A DNA stretch of 64,000 nucleotides from Desulfonauticus submarinus (lineage in GTDB: Bacteria; Desulfobacterota; Desulfovibrionia; Desulfovibrionales; Desulfonatronovibrionaceae): the NCBI RefSeq assembly GCF_900104045.1, contig NZ_FNIN01000003.1, positions 124,001-188,000 of the forward strand, written 5' to 3'. Of the stretch, positions 48,290-55,703 are shown in pieces. Each line of letters starts with the position of its first letter. Within the stretch, counting starts at the first letter, position 1. A model generated the notes under the pieces. That model was not told the DNA's origin. It saw only the letters and a program-made list of their open reading frames with translations, and made no database searches. The position numbers and the translations under genes are program-made.

Positions 48290-48703
48290 ATGGTTATAGA
48301 TTTAGGTACATTTTATGATTTACCAAGACAATTTGATCGTATTTTTGATGAATTTTTTCGTCCAAGTGTTATAAGTCAGAAAAGAATAGCTTATCCACCA
48401 ATTAATATTTATGAAGATGAAGACAATATTTATGTCTACAGTGAGCTTCCAGGACTTGAAATTGAAGATATTGAACTTACATTAACTGACGGTAGCCTTG
48501 TATTAAAAGGAGAAAGAAAAATAGAACAAGGTAATTATTATCGTCAAGAAAGGCCAACAGGAGTATTTCAAAGGATAATAAATTTAAATGTTCCTATTGA
48601 TGCAGATAATATTAAAGCAAAAATGAAAAATGGATTATTAGAAATAATACTCCCAAAATCTACTGCAAATAAACCTAAAAAAATTGAAATAGAAAGCAAT
48701 TAA
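48290..48703 (+). CDS. Small heat-shock protein (Hsp20), first of three
   Basis: Alpha-crystallin-domain holdase chaperone, 137 residues. The N-terminus is short, with FYDLPRQFDRIFDEFF. The core beta-sheet domain covers about residues 40-127 with YVYSELPGLEIEDIELTL, and LKGERKI follows. The C-terminal sheet strand carries the conserved KMKNGLLEIILPKS. It is translated from an AGGAGGTG site. It starts a run of three hsp20 genes spaced 11 and about 28 bases apart, a single transcript. Confidence 0.92.
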   Translation: MVIDLGTFYDLPRQFDRIFDEFFRPSVISQKRIAYPPINIYEDEDNIYVYSELPGLEIEDIELTLTDGSLVLKGERKIEQGNYYRQERPTGVFQRIINLNVPIDADNIKAKMKNGLLEIILPKSTANKPKKIEIESN

Positions 48704-48714
48704 GGAGGAGTAAA

Positions 48715-49083
48715 ATGACTCAAGCAATAAACAAAAAAGAACAAACAAAAGAAATTGTATTTTCTCCATACACAGATATTGTAGAAAAAGAAGAAGGTTT
48801 TTATATTCTCATGGATATACCTGGAGTAGATAAACAGAATTTAGACTTGGACTTAAAAGAAAATGAACTAGAAATAAAAGCAAAAGTAACATGGGATAAG
48901 CCAGAAAAGGCAAAAGATATTCATGTAGAATTTGTGCCAGGGGAATTTCGACGTCAATTTACTATTTCAGAAATTGTAGACAAAGATAAAATTAAGGCTC
49001 ACTTAAAAAATGGAGTACTCAGCCTTTTCTTACCTAAAGCTGAAAAAGCTAAACCAAGAAAAATTAGCATTACTGCAGAATAA
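48715..49083 (+). CDS. Small heat-shock protein (Hsp20), second of three
   Basis: Alpha-crystallin-domain protein of 122 residues with a very short N-terminal arm. The core shows GFYILMDIPGVDKQNLDLDL and LKNGVLSLFLPKAEKAKP at the end. The sequence differs strongly from its two neighbours, so these are not recent duplicates. GGAGGAG precedes the ATG. Such short forms may lack some oligomer contacts and act on partner proteins only, but this is a guess. Confidence 0.9.
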   Translation: MTQAINKKEQTKEIVFSPYTDIVEKEEGFYILMDIPGVDKQNLDLDLKENELEIKAKVTWDKPEKAKDIHVEFVPGEFRRQFTISEIVDKDKIKAHLKNGVLSLFLPKAEKAKPRKISITAE

Positions 49084-49111
49084 ATAAAATCTTAAAAAGG
49101 AGGTGAGAGCC

Positions 49112-49576
49112 ATGTTAGAAAAATTTGTACCAAGTTTAAGAAGAAAACAAGAAAGTGTTCTCACTCCTACGAGCAGTGTATTTGACTTATTTGATCAAAT
49201 GGACAGAATGTTAAGAGAAACTTGGTGGGGCAATGGAGAGTTAAGTACTACTTTTGCTCCTGCAGTAGAAGTGAGAGAAAATGACGATGAGATAATCGTA
49301 AAAGCTGAAATTCCAGGCCTTGATACTAAAGATTTAGATGTAAGGCTAGAAAATAATTACCTTATTTTACAAGGTGAGAAAAAACAAGAATCTAAAAGTG
49401 AAAAAGACAATATTGTAAGAATGGAAGTAAGTTATGGTTCCTTTTATAGGGCAATTCCTTTACCTTCTGAAGTAGATGAAAGTAAAATTAAGGCAAAATA
49501 TAAAAAAGGAGTCTTAACTATTACTTTACCTAAAAGTGAAAAGGCTAAAGCGAAAAAAATTGCTATTGAAGGATAG
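49112..49576 (+). CDS. Small heat-shock protein (Hsp20), third of three
   Basis: A 154-residue alpha-crystallin-domain chaperone with a longer N-terminal arm (LFDQMDRMLRETWWGNG). The core contains IIVKAEIPGLDTKDLDVRL and KYKKGVLTITLPKSEKAKA near the C-terminus. I start at the ATG at 49112, 9 bases after AAGGAGGTG. An earlier GTG frame at 49103 overlaps that ribosome site. It closes the triple gene run and is followed by a bidirectional terminator at 49603-49641. Confidence 0.92.
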   Translation: MLEKFVPSLRRKQESVLTPTSSVFDLFDQMDRMLRETWWGNGELSTTFAPAVEVRENDDEIIVKAEIPGLDTKDLDVRLENNYLILQGEKKQESKSEKDNIVRMEVSYGSFYRAIPLPSEVDESKIKAKYKKGVLTITLPKSEKAKAKKIAIEG

Positions 49577-49950: not shown

Positions 49951-50970
49951 ATGATTTTAAAAAAATTTCTTAACCCTGTATTTTCTTGGATCCAAGTTGA
50001 GATTACTTCCAATTGTAATGCTCAATGTACCTATTGTCCTCATACTATTTTAAAACCTTACTGGATAAAAAGAGACATTCCTTTAAATATACTTGAAGCA
50101 CTTAATCCACTTCTAAGGAATGTAGAACTTGTTTACCTTCAAGGCTGGGGAGAACCTCTACTCTATCCTAACCTATTAGAAATGATCTCCTACTTAAAAA
50201 ATAAAAAAATTAAGGTAGGATTAACAACAAATGGGATGTTATTAAATGACAATATGTTAAACCAAATACTCTCTTCAAGGCTCGATATCCTAGCTTTTTC
50301 CCTTGCAGGTACAACTCCTGCGACCAATGATTCTATTCGCAAAGGCACTTCCTTTAAAAAAATTATATCATTAGCTCAAAACATAAAACATTATAAACAA
50401 TTACACAATATTCAGACTCCAGCACTACATTTAGCCTATATAGTATTTAAATCTACCTTTAATGAACTAGAAGGTCTTTTATCTATTATAAAACAACAAA
50501 TTTTTTCAGAAATTGTAATCAATCCTCTTACTTTATGTTTAACTCCAGAATTAGAAAATGAATTAATTTTTATAGAAAATCTTACAAACCAACAAAAAAA
50601 ACTTTTAAATCTTTTAAAAAACATGGCCAAACGTTATAATACAAATTTAGCTATAAATCTTCTCCAAAAACAACATTCTCCATGTACAGAAAATATACAA
50701 TGGTCAACTACGATTGGTTCTAATAAACAAATATACCCCTGTGTTTTTCACATGTTACCAATCAAAGGGAAAACAACACATTACTATTTTCATAAAAAAT
50801 ACTACTTAAAGCCACAAAACTTTGGAGACCTTAATAAAAATTCTTTAAAAGAAATATGGTGGGATAAGAAATATAGACTGTTTAGAAAACATCATTTAAA
50901 AAATAGACTAGAACCATATCAATGTTCTAAGTGCTATAAAAGACATATAAAAAGTGAAATTTTAAATTAA
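49951..50970 (+). CDS. Radical SAM protein with SPASM-like cysteine-rich C-terminus
   Basis: A 339-residue radical SAM protein. The CxxxCxxC that binds the catalytic 4Fe-4S cluster is in EITSNCNAQCTYCPHTI (Cys22, Cys26, Cys29). YLQGWGEPLLYPN and VGLTTNGMLL are standard barrel motifs. Towards the end, CTENIQW, YPCVFHM and CSKCYKRHI give additional cysteines, as in SPASM domains that carry auxiliary clusters. The reaction is not known. It is transcribed alone and converges with the 84-residue gene (overlap of 4 bases). A sugar, peptide or cofactor modification is possible. Confidence 0.8.
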   Translation: MILKKFLNPVFSWIQVEITSNCNAQCTYCPHTILKPYWIKRDIPLNILEALNPLLRNVELVYLQGWGEPLLYPNLLEMISYLKNKKIKVGLTTNGMLLNDNMLNQILSSRLDILAFSLAGTTPATNDSIRKGTSFKKIISLAQNIKHYKQLHNIQTPALHLAYIVFKSTFNELEGLLSIIKQQIFSEIVINPLTLCLTPELENELIFIENLTNQQKKLLNLLKNMAKRYNTNLAINLLQKQHSPCTENIQWSTTIGSNKQIYPCVFHMLPIKGKTTHYYFHKKYYLKPQNFGDLNKNSLKEIWWDKKYRLFRKHHLKNRLEPYQCSKCYKRHIKSEILN

Positions 50971-51221
50971 ATATCTCCATTCTCTTTTATTTTTTTGTCT
51001 TCATAAGGTACTAACTTTCTTCTATACCATTCCAACTTAGCATGTTCCATAGCAGAAGAACACATACTAAGGTTTGCATAACTTTCTCCTATTCTTTCTA
51101 TTAATAAGCAGCTTAGCTTATAAAAACAATAATTTAATTCTCCTTCATTTTTTATAGATTTTGCTATTTCTTCTAAATATTTATCAAACAATTCCCTTTT
51201 ATTTTTGTCAATATAAGGCAT
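50967..51221 (-). CDS. Small conserved-type protein of unknown function (84 residues)
   Basis: An 84-residue, mostly helical protein beginning MPYIDKNKRELFDKYL and ending WYRRKLVPYEDKKIKENGDI. From memory it resembles a small family listed as DUF6899, but I cannot confirm this. It has no membrane segment and no recognised catalytic motif; three cysteines are scattered and not spaced as a metal site. AAAAAAAGGAG precedes the ATG, so it is a real gene. Its start abuts the stop of the beta-grasp gene (TAA then ATG), and the two follow the radical SAM gene, so all three are likely one transcript. Confidence 0.75.
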   Translation of the reverse strand: MPYIDKNKRELFDKYLEEIAKSIKNEGELNYCFYKLSCLLIERIGESYANLSMCSSAMEHAKLEWYRRKLVPYEDKKIKENGDI

Positions 51222-51506
51222 TTAAAATCTCCTTTTTTTAGAATCTTTTATTCCAAGTAAATGTCTATATGGCCCAGGGATTCCTGGCGGAACTAGCCCT
51301 ACTCTGTCTCCATCTTTTAATCTTGTATCAAATGGAACTATTTTCCCATTTACAAAACAAGCTTCTACTTCTTCATCAGATAAATTATAATATTCTAAAA
51401 GATCTTGTATTGTTTTGACAAAAAGAGGAAGTTTAACTTCTGTATTTAAATTCATCTCTTTTAGCTTAAAATATAAAGGACCAAAAGCATTAAATAATAT
51501 CTTCAT
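51222..51506 (-). CDS. MoaD/ThiS-like beta-grasp protein without C-terminal Gly-Gly
   Basis: The 94-residue protein matches the ubiquitin-like MoaD/ThiS fold: LKEMNLNTEVKLPLFVKTIQ, then LLEYYNLSDEEV, VNGKIVPFDTRLKDGDRVGLVPP. Canonical sulfur carriers end in Gly-Gly. Here the chain continues as GIPGPYRHLLGIKDSKKRRF, so thiocarboxylation in the usual way is impossible unless the tail is removed. AGAAGGTAAAA precedes the ATG, inside the end of the radical SAM gene (overlap of 17 bases). Function is unknown. Confidence 0.8.
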   Translation of the reverse strand: MKILFNAFGPLYFKLKEMNLNTEVKLPLFVKTIQDLLEYYNLSDEEVEACFVNGKIVPFDTRLKDGDRVGLVPPGIPGPYRHLLGIKDSKKRRF

Positions 51507-53151
51507 TTTTACCTTCTATAAATTTACTTATCCCACATTGAGAACACTTAAAGCAGTCTTTTTTACACGAACTTGTCTGTTTTTGTTTATAAAAAAATAA
51601 AAACTCTTTGTATAGATATTCTTTATTAATGCCTTGAATAATATTGTCCCAAGGAAATACTGTATCCTTATCTTTTTCTTTTAAATATTGTTTAATTTTT
51701 TTGTATTCTTTTTTATAGGCCTTAATCCAAGAGTTCTCATTTAAGGCAGTTTCAATAAATGAAAAAGTTTGCTCATCTCCTCTAGCTAATACTGCCTGAA
51801 TGTGGGATAAAATAGGTTTTTCTCCACTAAATCTTATTCCTGAAAATTTTTTCACTATTTTTTTAAATTTCTTTATTTTTTCTTCTAAAATATCTAAATC
51901 TTCTACGCCAATCCATTGTAAAGGGGTCCAGGGTTTTGGTACTAAAATGCTAGCACTAATTTGGATTAAATCTAGTCCCTTTTTCTTTTTTCCTTTTGCC
52001 TCTGCTCTAACTTTATTTAATCTATTCAAAAAAATTTCTAGTTCTTTAAAATCATCTTCTTGTTCATTTGGAAAGCCTAAAATAAAATATAATTTTAAGG
52101 TGTTAAATTGTAATTTAGAAATATTACTTACTACTTCCCAAAATTTTTTCTCTGGAAACTTTTTGTTTATAGATTGACGAATTTTAAGACTTATACCTTC
52201 AACAGCCAAAGTAATACTTCTTATACCTTGTTTACGCAAAAAAATAAGAAAGTCTTTGTCTAAGGCTTCGATTCTAAGAGAAGAAAGACTAAATTTTATT
52301 TTATTTTCTGCCAACCAATATAAAAACTCTTTTAAATAAGGCCAATCAGTTAAGGCAGTGCCAACTAATCCAACTTTTTTAGGCTGTACTTTTTTTATAA
52401 TCTCTTTAGCTGTTTTTAAGGAAATTTCCCGAAAAGGGCGATAAATATATCCTGCGGCACAAAATCTACAACCATAAAGGCATCCTCTATTTATCTCCAG
52501 TAAAAAAGTATCTGGGAAAGCACTTTTATTGGACACAAAAAGAGAATATGCAGGAAAAAAAGAAGATTGAAATACCCGTCTTGCTTTTTTTTCTTTTGTA
52601 AGAACACAGTCCCAACTAAGCGCCAACTCTACCAAATCATTTTTTTGAGCACCCTGTAAGTAAGCCCTTTTTAAATTTTGCAAAAGAGGTACAAAATCCT
52701 TTTCACTTTCTCCCACAAACATAAAATCAAAAGCAGGTAACAAGGGAAATGGATTAAGAAAGGCTAAAGGGCCACCACCAATTAAAAGAGGGAAGTGTGT
52801 TCTGTGTTGGGCTTTAAGAGAAAAGTTATGTTTCTTAAGATAACGCAAGATATTTAAAGCATCTAATTCAAAATTAAGACTAAAACACCAAATAGGGAAG
52901 GAGGAGAGAGGAAGATGATTGTCAAGGGATTTAAAATCTTTTTCATCTTCCCCTTGTCCACAAAATCGTTCTACTACAAAATCATCCTCTTTAATCAAAG
53001 ATCTAAAAACAGCTTGCCAGCCCAGCGTAGAAAGAGCTAAGTTTTTTTTCTCAGGAAAAATTAAAGCTATTGGTAACCTTCCTCCCCACTCTCGGGAAGG
53101 AACCTTATCTCTACCCCAAAATAAAATTTCTTTGTCTAAATTAAAACTCAA
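51490..53151 (-). CDS. Radical SAM protein of TIGR03960/B12-associated type
   Basis: A 553-residue radical SAM protein with LPIALIFPEKKNLALSTLGW at the N-terminus, matching the first half of the TIGR03960-like/B12-binding group. The cluster motif is LEINRGCLYGCRFCAAG, with the cysteines at about 224-231. The end has CKKDCFKCSQCG, a second cysteine group. The start is TTG at 53151 with no clear ribosome site and a stop in frame just upstream, so the exact start is uncertain. It precedes the beta-grasp and 84-residue genes by overlap and a touching stop/start. Confidence 0.82.
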   Translation of the reverse strand: MSFNLDKEILFWGRDKVPSREWGGRLPIALIFPEKKNLALSTLGWQAVFRSLIKEDDFVVERFCGQGEDEKDFKSLDNHLPLSSFPIWCFSLNFELDALNILRYLKKHNFSLKAQHRTHFPLLIGGGPLAFLNPFPLLPAFDFMFVGESEKDFVPLLQNLKRAYLQGAQKNDLVELALSWDCVLTKEKKARRVFQSSFFPAYSLFVSNKSAFPDTFLLEINRGCLYGCRFCAAGYIYRPFREISLKTAKEIIKKVQPKKVGLVGTALTDWPYLKEFLYWLAENKIKFSLSSLRIEALDKDFLIFLRKQGIRSITLAVEGISLKIRQSINKKFPEKKFWEVVSNISKLQFNTLKLYFILGFPNEQEDDFKELEIFLNRLNKVRAEAKGKKKKGLDLIQISASILVPKPWTPLQWIGVEDLDILEEKIKKFKKIVKKFSGIRFSGEKPILSHIQAVLARGDEQTFSFIETALNENSWIKAYKKEYKKIKQYLKEKDKDTVFPWDNIIQGINKEYLYKEFLFFYKQKQTSSCKKDCFKCSQCGISKFIEGKNEDII

Positions 53152-53196: not shown

Positions 53197-54411
53197 TTAA
53201 TCTGCCTGCATTCTAATAAATGTAGGAATTTCAAACTCTTCTTCTTCAAAAACAAAATCCTCTCCTTTTCCAGAATTATCTTCAGTAGGTTGAGTAAAAC
53301 TTTTTCCTCTTTTTCGTAAGTATGCAGGCACTCTTAAATCTTCCTTATTCTCTATTTCAGGAGAATGAGGCTTTACTTGTCTTAATGCCTTTTCATTCTT
53401 TTTCTTTATCTCTGTAAAAGACGTTACCTTTTCTTCTGCAGGAGGTTGTTCTTCTTTATCCTCTATACCTGTAGCAATAACAGTAATTCTCAATTCATCT
53501 CCAATATTTTCATCAAGAACTGCTCCAAAATAAATTTTGGCATCTTCATGAGCAGCTTCGTGAATAATATCTGCAGCTGCACTAATTTCATCAACTGTTA
53601 GATCAGGGCCACAACTAACATTCATCAAAATACCTCTTGCGCCTTCAATAGAAACATCCTCTAACAAAGGACTATTAATAGCCTTTAAAGCTGCCTCTCT
53701 AGCCCTGCCTTCTCCTTGAGCAATACCTGTGCCCATCAAAGCTAATCCCATTTCTGACATTACAGCCTTTACATCAGCAAAATCTAAATTGATTAAGCCT
53801 GGCACCATAATTAGATCAGAGATACCCTTAACTGCATAATATAATACTTCATCTGCCTTTTTAAGCATCTCCAAAAATGTGGCTTTTTTGGAAGCCAAAT
53901 TAAGCAAGCGATCATTTGGAATGGTTATAATACTATCTACAACTTCTTTTAAGTTTTTAATACCCTGTTCTGCAATGGCAAGCCGCCTTTTGCCTTCAAA
54001 ATAAAAAGGCTTAGTTACTACTGCTACAGTTAACGCTCCCATTTCTTTTGCCAATTGGGCTATGACTGGTGCAGCTCCTGTACCTGTTCCACCCCCCATT
54101 CCAGCAGTAACAAAAACCATATCACTGCCTTCTAAAATTTCCTTAATAGCGTCTGCACTTTCTAAAGCTGCTTCCTTTCCTACCTCAGGATTAGCTCCTG
54201 CACCTAATCCCTTAGTTAATTTTTCTCCTAGTTGAATTTTATATTCTGCTTTAGAACTTTTAAGGGCTTGGAGATCTGTGTTCGCGGCAATAAAGGTCAC
54301 GCCACGCATAGCAGAGCAAATCATATTATTAATAGCATTTCCTCCACCCCCACCAACACCAACAACTTTTATTTTAGCATTGCCTTCCATTTCTAACTCT
54401 AAATATTCCAT
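53197..54411 (-). CDS. ftsZ: Cell-division protein FtsZ
   Basis: Tubulin-like GTPase that forms the division ring. The 404-residue protein has [14 protein letters not shown] at the start, the GTP signature [13 protein letters not shown] at about residue 106, and the T7 loop [11 protein letters not shown] at about residue 208. A disordered linker leads to the C-terminal peptide [11 protein letters not shown], which docks FtsA. AAGGAGGAG precedes the ATG. It is the final gene of the division cluster, 62 bases after ftsA. Confidence 0.97.
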
Positions 54412-54473: not shown

Positions 54474-55703
54474 TTAACTAATGTCTGAAAACCACTTTTT
54501 CATTCTACCAAGAACTCTGTTAAAAATATTTTTATCTCTAATTCTAAACTTACTTCCCTGAGCTATTTTTTCTGCTCCGTATTTTAAAAGACCAACAGCA
54601 GTAGCATACATAGGACTATTTACCACATCTTTTAGCCCACCTACATTTATAGGGCTAGCAACTCTAGTAGGTAAATTAAAAATTTGCTCTCCTAACTCCT
54701 GAATTCCATCAATTAAAGCAGCTCCGCCAGTAAGCACTACTCCTGCAGCTATAGATTTTTTAAAGCCAGAACGAACCAATTCCTGCTCTACAAGGACTAA
54801 AAGTTCTTCCATTCTTGGCTCACATATTTCTGCTAGAATATGACGTGATAACTTGCGAGAAGGTCTGCCTCCAACACTAGGTACCTCTATAACTTCATTA
54901 TCCCTTACTAAATCAGCTAATGCGCATCCATATTTCACTTTTATTTGTTCTGCTGCTCCCATAGGAGTTCTCAAACCATAAGCAATATCACTAGTTAAAT
55001 TTGTCCCTCCTATTGCTAAAACAGCTGTATGCCTGATAGAATCTTTAGAAAAAATTGCTATATCAGTAGTTCCTCCTCCAATATCAACTAAGGCAACTCC
55101 TATTTCTTTTTCTTCATCTGTAAGTACTGATTTAGCAGATGCCAAAGATTCTAAAACAATATCCTCCACATCTAAGCCTGCTCTATGACAAGAACGAATA
55201 ATATTTTGAGCACTACTTACCGCACCAGTAACAATATGGACTTTAACCTCTAATCGCACTCCAGCCATACCAAGCGGATCTGCAATACCCCGCTGTTCAT
55301 CAACTATAAACTCTTGAGGTAAAATATGAATCACTTCCCTATCTAAAGGAATGGCAACTGCCTTAGCAGCATCTATAACTCTATCCACATCTTTTGAACT
55401 AACTTCACCGCCCTTAACAGCAATTACTCCATGACTATTAAAACCTTTTATATGACTACCAGCTATACCAGTATATACTGAATGTATTTCCCTGCCAGCC
55501 ATTAACTCTGCTTCTTCTACTGCTCTTTGAATAGAGCGAACTGTCTGGTCAATATTAACCACAACCCCTTTACGCAACCCTGTAGAAGGACTTGTACCAA
55601 TACCTATTACATCTACTCCATCTTCTGTTACTTCACCAACTACACAGCAAATTTTTGTGGTGCCAAGATCCAATCCCACTACTAAATTATTGTCCCTGGC
55701 CAT
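54474..55703 (-). CDS. ftsA: Cell-division protein FtsA
   Basis: Actin-like protein that ties FtsZ to the membrane. The 409-residue product has VGLDLGTTKICCVVGEV at the start (phosphate 1), VDIGGGTTDIAIF at about residue 208 (phosphate 2) and VLTGGAALIDGI at about residue 325. A C-terminal amphipathic helix, GRMKKWFSDIS, should insert in the membrane. AAAGGAGC precedes the ATG. It follows ftsQ by 15 bases. Confidence 0.97.
   Translation of the reverse strand: MARDNNLVVGLDLGTTKICCVVGEVTEDGVDVIGIGTSPSTGLRKGVVVNIDQTVRSIQRAVEEAELMAGREIHSVYTGIAGSHIKGFNSHGVIAVKGGEVSSKDVDRVIDAAKAVAIPLDREVIHILPQEFIVDEQRGIADPLGMAGVRLEVKVHIVTGAVSSAQNIIRSCHRAGLDVEDIVLESLASAKSVLTDEEKEIGVALVDIGGGTTDIAIFSKDSIRHTAVLAIGGTNLTSDIAYGLRTPMGAAEQIKVKYGCALADLVRDNEVIEVPSVGGRPSRKLSRHILAEICEPRMEELLVLVEQELVRSGFKKSIAAGVVLTGGAALIDGIQELGEQIFNLPTRVASPINVGGLKDVVNSPMYATAVGLLKYGAEKIAQGSKFRIRDKNIFNRVLGRMKKWFSDIS

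Follow-up and report, generated by a model that had tools for sequence, protein, structure and literature searches.

A MoaD-like protein with a conserved tail in place of the C-terminal Gly-Gly and its apparent link to one clade of aldehyde:ferredoxin oxidoreductases

The window analysed here is a 64,000-nucleotide stretch of a Desulfonauticus submarinus contig (NZ_FNIN01000003.1, positions 124,001 to 188,000). It contains a minus-strand run of three genes that encode a short radical SAM protein (rSAM), a beta-grasp protein hereafter called T, and a small helical protein of the DUF6899 family (Table 1). An initial annotation of this DNA had described the order and overlaps of these genes and the Gly-Gly-less end of T; coordinates, strand, overlaps and the absent Gly-Gly were re-checked on the sequence, and all match that description.

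Table 1. Features of the locus, with positions numbered from the first nucleotide of the window.
Feature	Position	Strand	Basis
Convergent radical SAM/SPASM protein	49951..50970	+	related to TIGR04317, below cut-off
DUF6899 protein, 84 aa, three predicted helices	50967..51221	-	PF21840, 126.7 bits; alignment; AlphaFold2 model
T: MoaD/ThiS-like beta-grasp protein, 94 aa, without Gly-Gly	51222..51506	-	PF02597, 39.6 bits; alignments; AlphaFold2 model
rSAM: short radical SAM protein, 553 aa, paralogue of TIGR03960	51490..53151	-	PF19864, PF04055
ftsZ	53197..54411	-	sequence; same order in sampled genomes
ftsA	54474..55703	-	sequence; same order in sampled genomes

The T gene begins 17 bases inside the rSAM gene, and the start codon of the DUF6899 gene immediately follows the T stop codon. 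The Shine-Dalgarno sequence of the DUF6899 gene (AAAGGAG) doubles as codons for the last residues of T, KKRRF (window positions 51222-51245, AAAAAAAGGAGATTTTAA). This common start region suggests that T and DUF6899 are translationally coupled, and because the Shine-Dalgarno sequence of the next gene encodes KKRRF, the basic end of T may be a by-product of that coupling. The genes ftsZ and ftsA lie upstream of rSAM on the same strand, with a gap of 45 bases between ftsZ and the start of rSAM. On this strand, no terminator-like site was predicted from ftsZ to the DUF6899 end of the run. Given these two features, the rSAM-T-DUF6899 run may be an extension of the division operon. The same order, with tight spacing or overlap, is found in nine genomes of the host family; because it recurs in the eight besides that of the window, the arrangement is evidently not due to chance. 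An Rfam scan near the locus returned nothing besides tRNAs. One tRNA (49736-49650, minus strand) comes after three tandem plus-strand genes (48290-49576) that resemble those for Hsp20-type small heat shock proteins.

T exceeds the gathering cut-off of the ThiS family PF02597 (22.5 bits) but falls under the cut-offs of all MoaD/ThiS equivalog models, including those for moaD (12.6 bits, cut-off 66.15) and thiS (13.6 bits, cut-off 37.45). Its AlphaFold2 model has an overall pLDDT of 86.4, with low confidence (53-65) for the last 14 residues, and the best PDB folds retrieved are MoaD structures, 1fm0 and 1vjk, led in the Foldseek search by 1fm0_D (E = 2.1e-4). The MoaD/ThiS fold proposed initially is thus borne out as a predicted fold.

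The PPGxPGPYR segment that the initial annotation had singled out belongs to a tail, VPPGIPGPYRHLLGI, that spans residues 72-86 and is followed by the variable end KDSKKRRF. The ten T orthologues of the host family have PPGxPGPYRxLLGI in common, and the tail is kept in 62 T proteins from Desulfobacterota, Campylobacterota and Bacillota. In the alignment of these 62 proteins, the tail, with consensus PxGxPGPYRxxLG, is the most conserved region: mean column conservation is 0.90 for residues 73-85, compared with 0.52 for the body and 0.25 for the last nine residues. PG[PS][YH]R is present in 61 of the 62 rows. A C-terminal Gly-Gly occurs in none of them; instead, the chains carry a conserved extension past the usual Gly-Gly position. 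One of the genome scans for T was seeded with PGPYR and favours tailed members; protein and profile searches that were not seeded in this way recovered the same tails plus a few related Gly-Gly-less tails of other types. T belongs to a family that is widespread among bacteria and has a conserved tail of its own.

MoaD/ThiS carriers use their C-terminal Gly-Gly for adenylation and thiocarboxylation, and adenylation by E1-like enzymes (ThiF/MoeB) requires a free C-terminal glycine. Five further loci (L260-L264) encode Gly-Gly-less MoaD-like proteins with other tails (FHPQSMWPFQYRHGVKM, FPPELAFNTFVSLGFRKE, ASRGIPGPHRFTLGLYHAGK), and in two of these (L262 and L263) the gene directly follows one for a Gly-Gly-ended MoaD. 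These proteins may represent a wider set of tailed, non-carrier MoaD-like forms.

The T gene adjoins a gene for an aldehyde:ferredoxin oxidoreductase (AOR) at 24 loci, which are spread over Desulfobacterota, Campylobacterota and Bacillota. The genes common to these loci encode AOR, T, a Gly-Gly-ended MoaD and ThiF, in varying order; the separate Gly-Gly-ended MoaD is usual and ThiF is often present, so the Gly-Gly-ended carrier has a gene of its own in these operons. To account for AOR linkage across the T tree, at least five separate changes are required. The genome of the window has an AOR-MoaD(GG)-ThiF operon on another contig (C8) that does not include T, and many T genes of the Desulfobacula type are standalone. 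Near the standalone genes of the Desulfobacula/Desulfotignum type (L053-L114), apparent sensor kinase, response regulator and cobalamin genes recur, and the genomes of this group that were tested encode an AOR of the T-linked clade elsewhere.

AOR genes are common across the phylum, and the bare presence of an AOR barely separates genomes with T from those without it (20 of 20 versus 50 of 60; 50 of 50 in a second count). This measure was therefore set aside as too common, and AOR clade was used instead. Scored against the AOR of this genome, full-length AORs encoded next to T reach 633-861 bits, compared with at most 290 bits for other AORs fetched by PF01314 rank, which indicates that the T-adjacent AORs are one kin group. 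A member of the group, at 480 bits or more, was found in all 42 T-bearing genomes tested and in 27 of 38 genomes without T (Fisher P = 1e-4), and at 700 bits the counts are 29 of 42 and 6 of 38 (P = 2e-6); these P values overstate independence since the tested genomes are related, and in a few low-scoring genomes without T the AOR bits were estimated from E-values, which leaves the thresholds unaffected.

Within the host family, all 10 genomes with T encode a close AOR (932 bits or more), as does one of the five that have a visibly vacant T site (P = 0.004). In three genomes of a single genus (G002, G003 and G007), the AOR gene is gone from between rSAM2 and MoaD(GG), while the rest of the cluster is retained (L252, L259 and L254, respectively), and at the ftsZ locus, which is unlinked, rSAM and DUF6899 no longer have T between them. 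This co-loss may be a single evolutionary event. Because MoaD(GG), ThiF and rSAM2 persist in these genomes after the loss of AOR and T, T seems to be linked specifically with that AOR and not with cofactor chemistry in general.

The convergent radical SAM gene was initially thought to be possibly related to the three-gene run, and this suggestion has gained support from sister genomes. Its best NCBIfam match is TIGR04317 (tungsten-cofactor oxidoreductase maturase), at 142-143.7 bits against a cut-off of 380; full-length sister copies are likewise below it (139-159 bits), and no other protein of the window's genome reaches this level. Counterparts of the gene adjoin the AOR-MoaD(GG)-ThiF operon, or what remains of it without AOR, in eight sister genomes. 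Both T and the convergent gene thus have AOR links elsewhere. The AOR operon of the window's own genome has no adjoining counterpart. In the window, T and the convergent gene are neighbours by convergence and are not part of one transcript.

The observed basis for an interpretation therefore comprises the predicted fold, the conserved tail, the lack of Gly-Gly, the recurrent AOR linkage and, within the host family, where the two genes lie apart, the joint presence or absence with one AOR clade. The reading that we favour, with a confidence that stands about evenly balanced, is that T is a non-carrier MoaD paralogue that serves a single clade of tungsten AORs as a dedicated accessory, presumably in their maturation or assembly. 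The initial annotation had offered a non-carrier adaptor as one of two alternatives, and the conserved tail, the 0 of 62 count for Gly-Gly and the AOR linkage make it the better fit. Under this proposal, the sulfur chemistry would fall to the AOR operon's own Gly-Gly-ended MoaD and ThiF. T itself would not be adenylatable because its chain extends beyond the usual Gly-Gly position and presents no free C-terminal glycine, which its operon mate does offer. The beta-grasp body and fixed PGPYRxxLG tail of T might dock on AOR, or on AOR together with the carrier, and this docking would probably take place during assembly or insertion of the tungstopyranopterin rather than during catalysis. In the genome of the window, the T gene would have come to lie between rSAM, an older gene linked to ftsZ, and DUF6899. 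Several observations speak against this reading: T is not next to AOR in the window, some close AORs occur without T, many Desulfobacula-type T genes stand alone, AOR is frequent in the phylum, the genomes compared are related, and the co-loss may reflect one event.

In the main rival reading, T would remain part of the mature AOR as a permanent subunit, either small or regulatory. The specificity of T for one AOR clade fits this idea, and T disappears along with AOR while Gly-Gly-ended MoaD, ThiF and rSAM2 stay, as would be expected of an enzyme partner. However, G015, the sole genome of the five with an empty T site to keep a close AOR, and three Desulfovibrionaceae genomes (G057, G230 and G294) encode close AORs without T, so T is dispensable for some of these enzymes. 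In addition, a review of tungsten oxidoreductases treats the nearby ThiS-like protein as a non-subunit, although tail types are not separated in the portion of that text considered here (PMC13328260). We regard a subunit role as doubtful.

A second possibility is a single complex of rSAM, T and DUF6899, with T delivering or holding the rSAM substrate. The conserved order in nine family genomes, the tight spacing or overlap, and the translational coupling suggested for T and DUF6899 all point in this direction, and the initial annotation had proposed an rSAM system specific to the trio, with a TIGR03960-type enzyme. The TIGR03960 label did not hold, in that rSAM scores 253.5 bits against a cut-off of 462.3 and a canonical TIGR03960 protein is encoded elsewhere in the same genome (668.6 bits). 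Members of the short rSAM subfamily score 573-990 bits, versus about 270 for canonical copies. Assignment to the radical SAM superfamily itself is sound: the protein matches PF04055 at 61.3 bits, and its CxxxCxxC cysteines (C224, C228 and C231) are invariant in the rSAM alignment. A C-terminal cluster adds four more cysteines (C529, C533, C536 and C539).

The distribution of rSAM differs from that of T. Most genomes sampled from the class have the short rSAM gene, which adjoins ftsZ in nearly every one inspected (L194, L196-L208), and most of the 14 sampled class genomes have rSAM after ftsZ with neither T nor DUF6899. Outside the class, T-bearing genomes encode only distant rSAM homologues or none, and in Sulfurospirillum with T no homologue was found at the threshold used. 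Even within the host family, T or rSAM is absent from the run in at least five genomes: rSAM and DUF6899 occur without T in four, T and DUF6899 lie apart from rSAM in one, and rSAM is alone in one. Because rSAM is present class-wide without T, T occurs without a close rSAM, and the family itself has exceptions, the rSAM-T link is, on the genomes sampled, confined to one family and not obligate.

DUF6899 fares no better as a fixed component. The 84-residue protein, initially listed as an unknown, lies well above the gathering cut-off of PF21840 (27 bits), so the databases do have a family for it. Its AlphaFold2 model is a confident three-helix fold (pLDDT 93.5) for which a search against the PDB gave no match, and a search of a phage collection returned two weak matches. 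DUF6899 is found in 12 of 395 phylum genomes, and among those 12 no tailed T match was detected apart from that in the window's genome; it was thus rejected as a constant partner of T. Many T genomes have neither a close copy of the short rSAM nor DUF6899. A literature search returned no paper on TIGR03960 or DUF6899 and nothing of bearing on DUF2344. A dedicated rSAM complex is distinctly unlikely.

The other alternative of the initial annotation was a pro-protein. That trimming would give T a functional glycine end, to be thiocarboxylated as in MoaD, is very improbable. Gly78 does align with the terminal MoaD glycine and is conserved in 98% of rows, but Pro79-Tyr80-Arg81 and Leu84-Gly85 in the stretch to be removed are about as conserved. 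The cut would have to precede a proline and would leave PG rather than GG, and the same operons already encode a Gly-Gly-ended carrier. Recruitment of T into cell division is scarcely credible: ftsZ, rSAM, T and DUF6899 do lie in a single run, and no minus-strand terminator was predicted within it, but T is linked to ftsZ in one family only and elsewhere is located near AOR or alone.

MoaD genes strictly adjacent to AOR were described by Iyer et al. in 2006 (PMC1779556), and a 2026 classification lists, near tungsten oxidoreductases, a ThiS-like protein of unknown function under the name 'WorX' (PMC13328260). In the portions of these two texts considered here, neither separates Gly-Gly-ended from tailed forms. 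We tentatively propose, at somewhat below an even chance, that T proteins make up a class of non-carrier MoaD relatives, not previously set apart, in which the PGPYRxxLG tail replaces the Gly-Gly thiocarboxylate and would help to assemble or load one AOR clade in partnership with the coexisting Gly-Gly-ended carrier. How the tungsten cofactor is inserted into AOR-type enzymes is left open in the literature, as far as the portions considered go. The distinction between a Gly-Gly-ended carrier and a Gly-Gly-less, tailed partner, together with a specific AOR clade, makes this question directly testable. Fitness data from Desulfovibrio vulgaris show that aor and tungsten-cofactor mutants resist chlorate (PMC10102598). 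Chlorate resistance could thus serve as a readout in a species with an AOR-MoaD-T-ThiF operon, where, provided that AOR depends on T, a T mutant would be expected to show the phenotype of an aor mutant.

Among known systems, T most closely resembles the MoaD/ThiS family (PF02597), with which it shares the beta-grasp fold and the N-G-x and D-G-D-x-V-x-x-x-P-P motifs; it differs in that the chain continues as PGPYRxxLG where these carriers end in Gly-Gly. T also has a ubiquitin-like domain similar to that of Ub-Mut7C (PF14451; 28.0 bits, cut-off 23), although the 94-residue protein stands alone without a Mut7-C RNase domain. The short rSAM shares the radical SAM core of the B12-binding TIGR03960 proteins, from which it differs as a 553-residue paralogue below their cut-off, and the convergent protein, like all copies in the host family, is far under the cut-off of its best match, TIGR04317. 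The nearest precedents are the AOR-linked MoaD (PMC1779556) and WorX (PMC13328260), as described in the portions of those texts considered here. Like them, T relatives are encoded by a ThiS-like gene in AOR operons with ThiF, and in 24 loci they show the AOR/WorL adjacency of WorX. Unlike in those descriptions, the Gly-Gly-ended and tailed forms are here separate, coexisting genes, and the T gene of the window is located away from the AOR operon, on a different contig.
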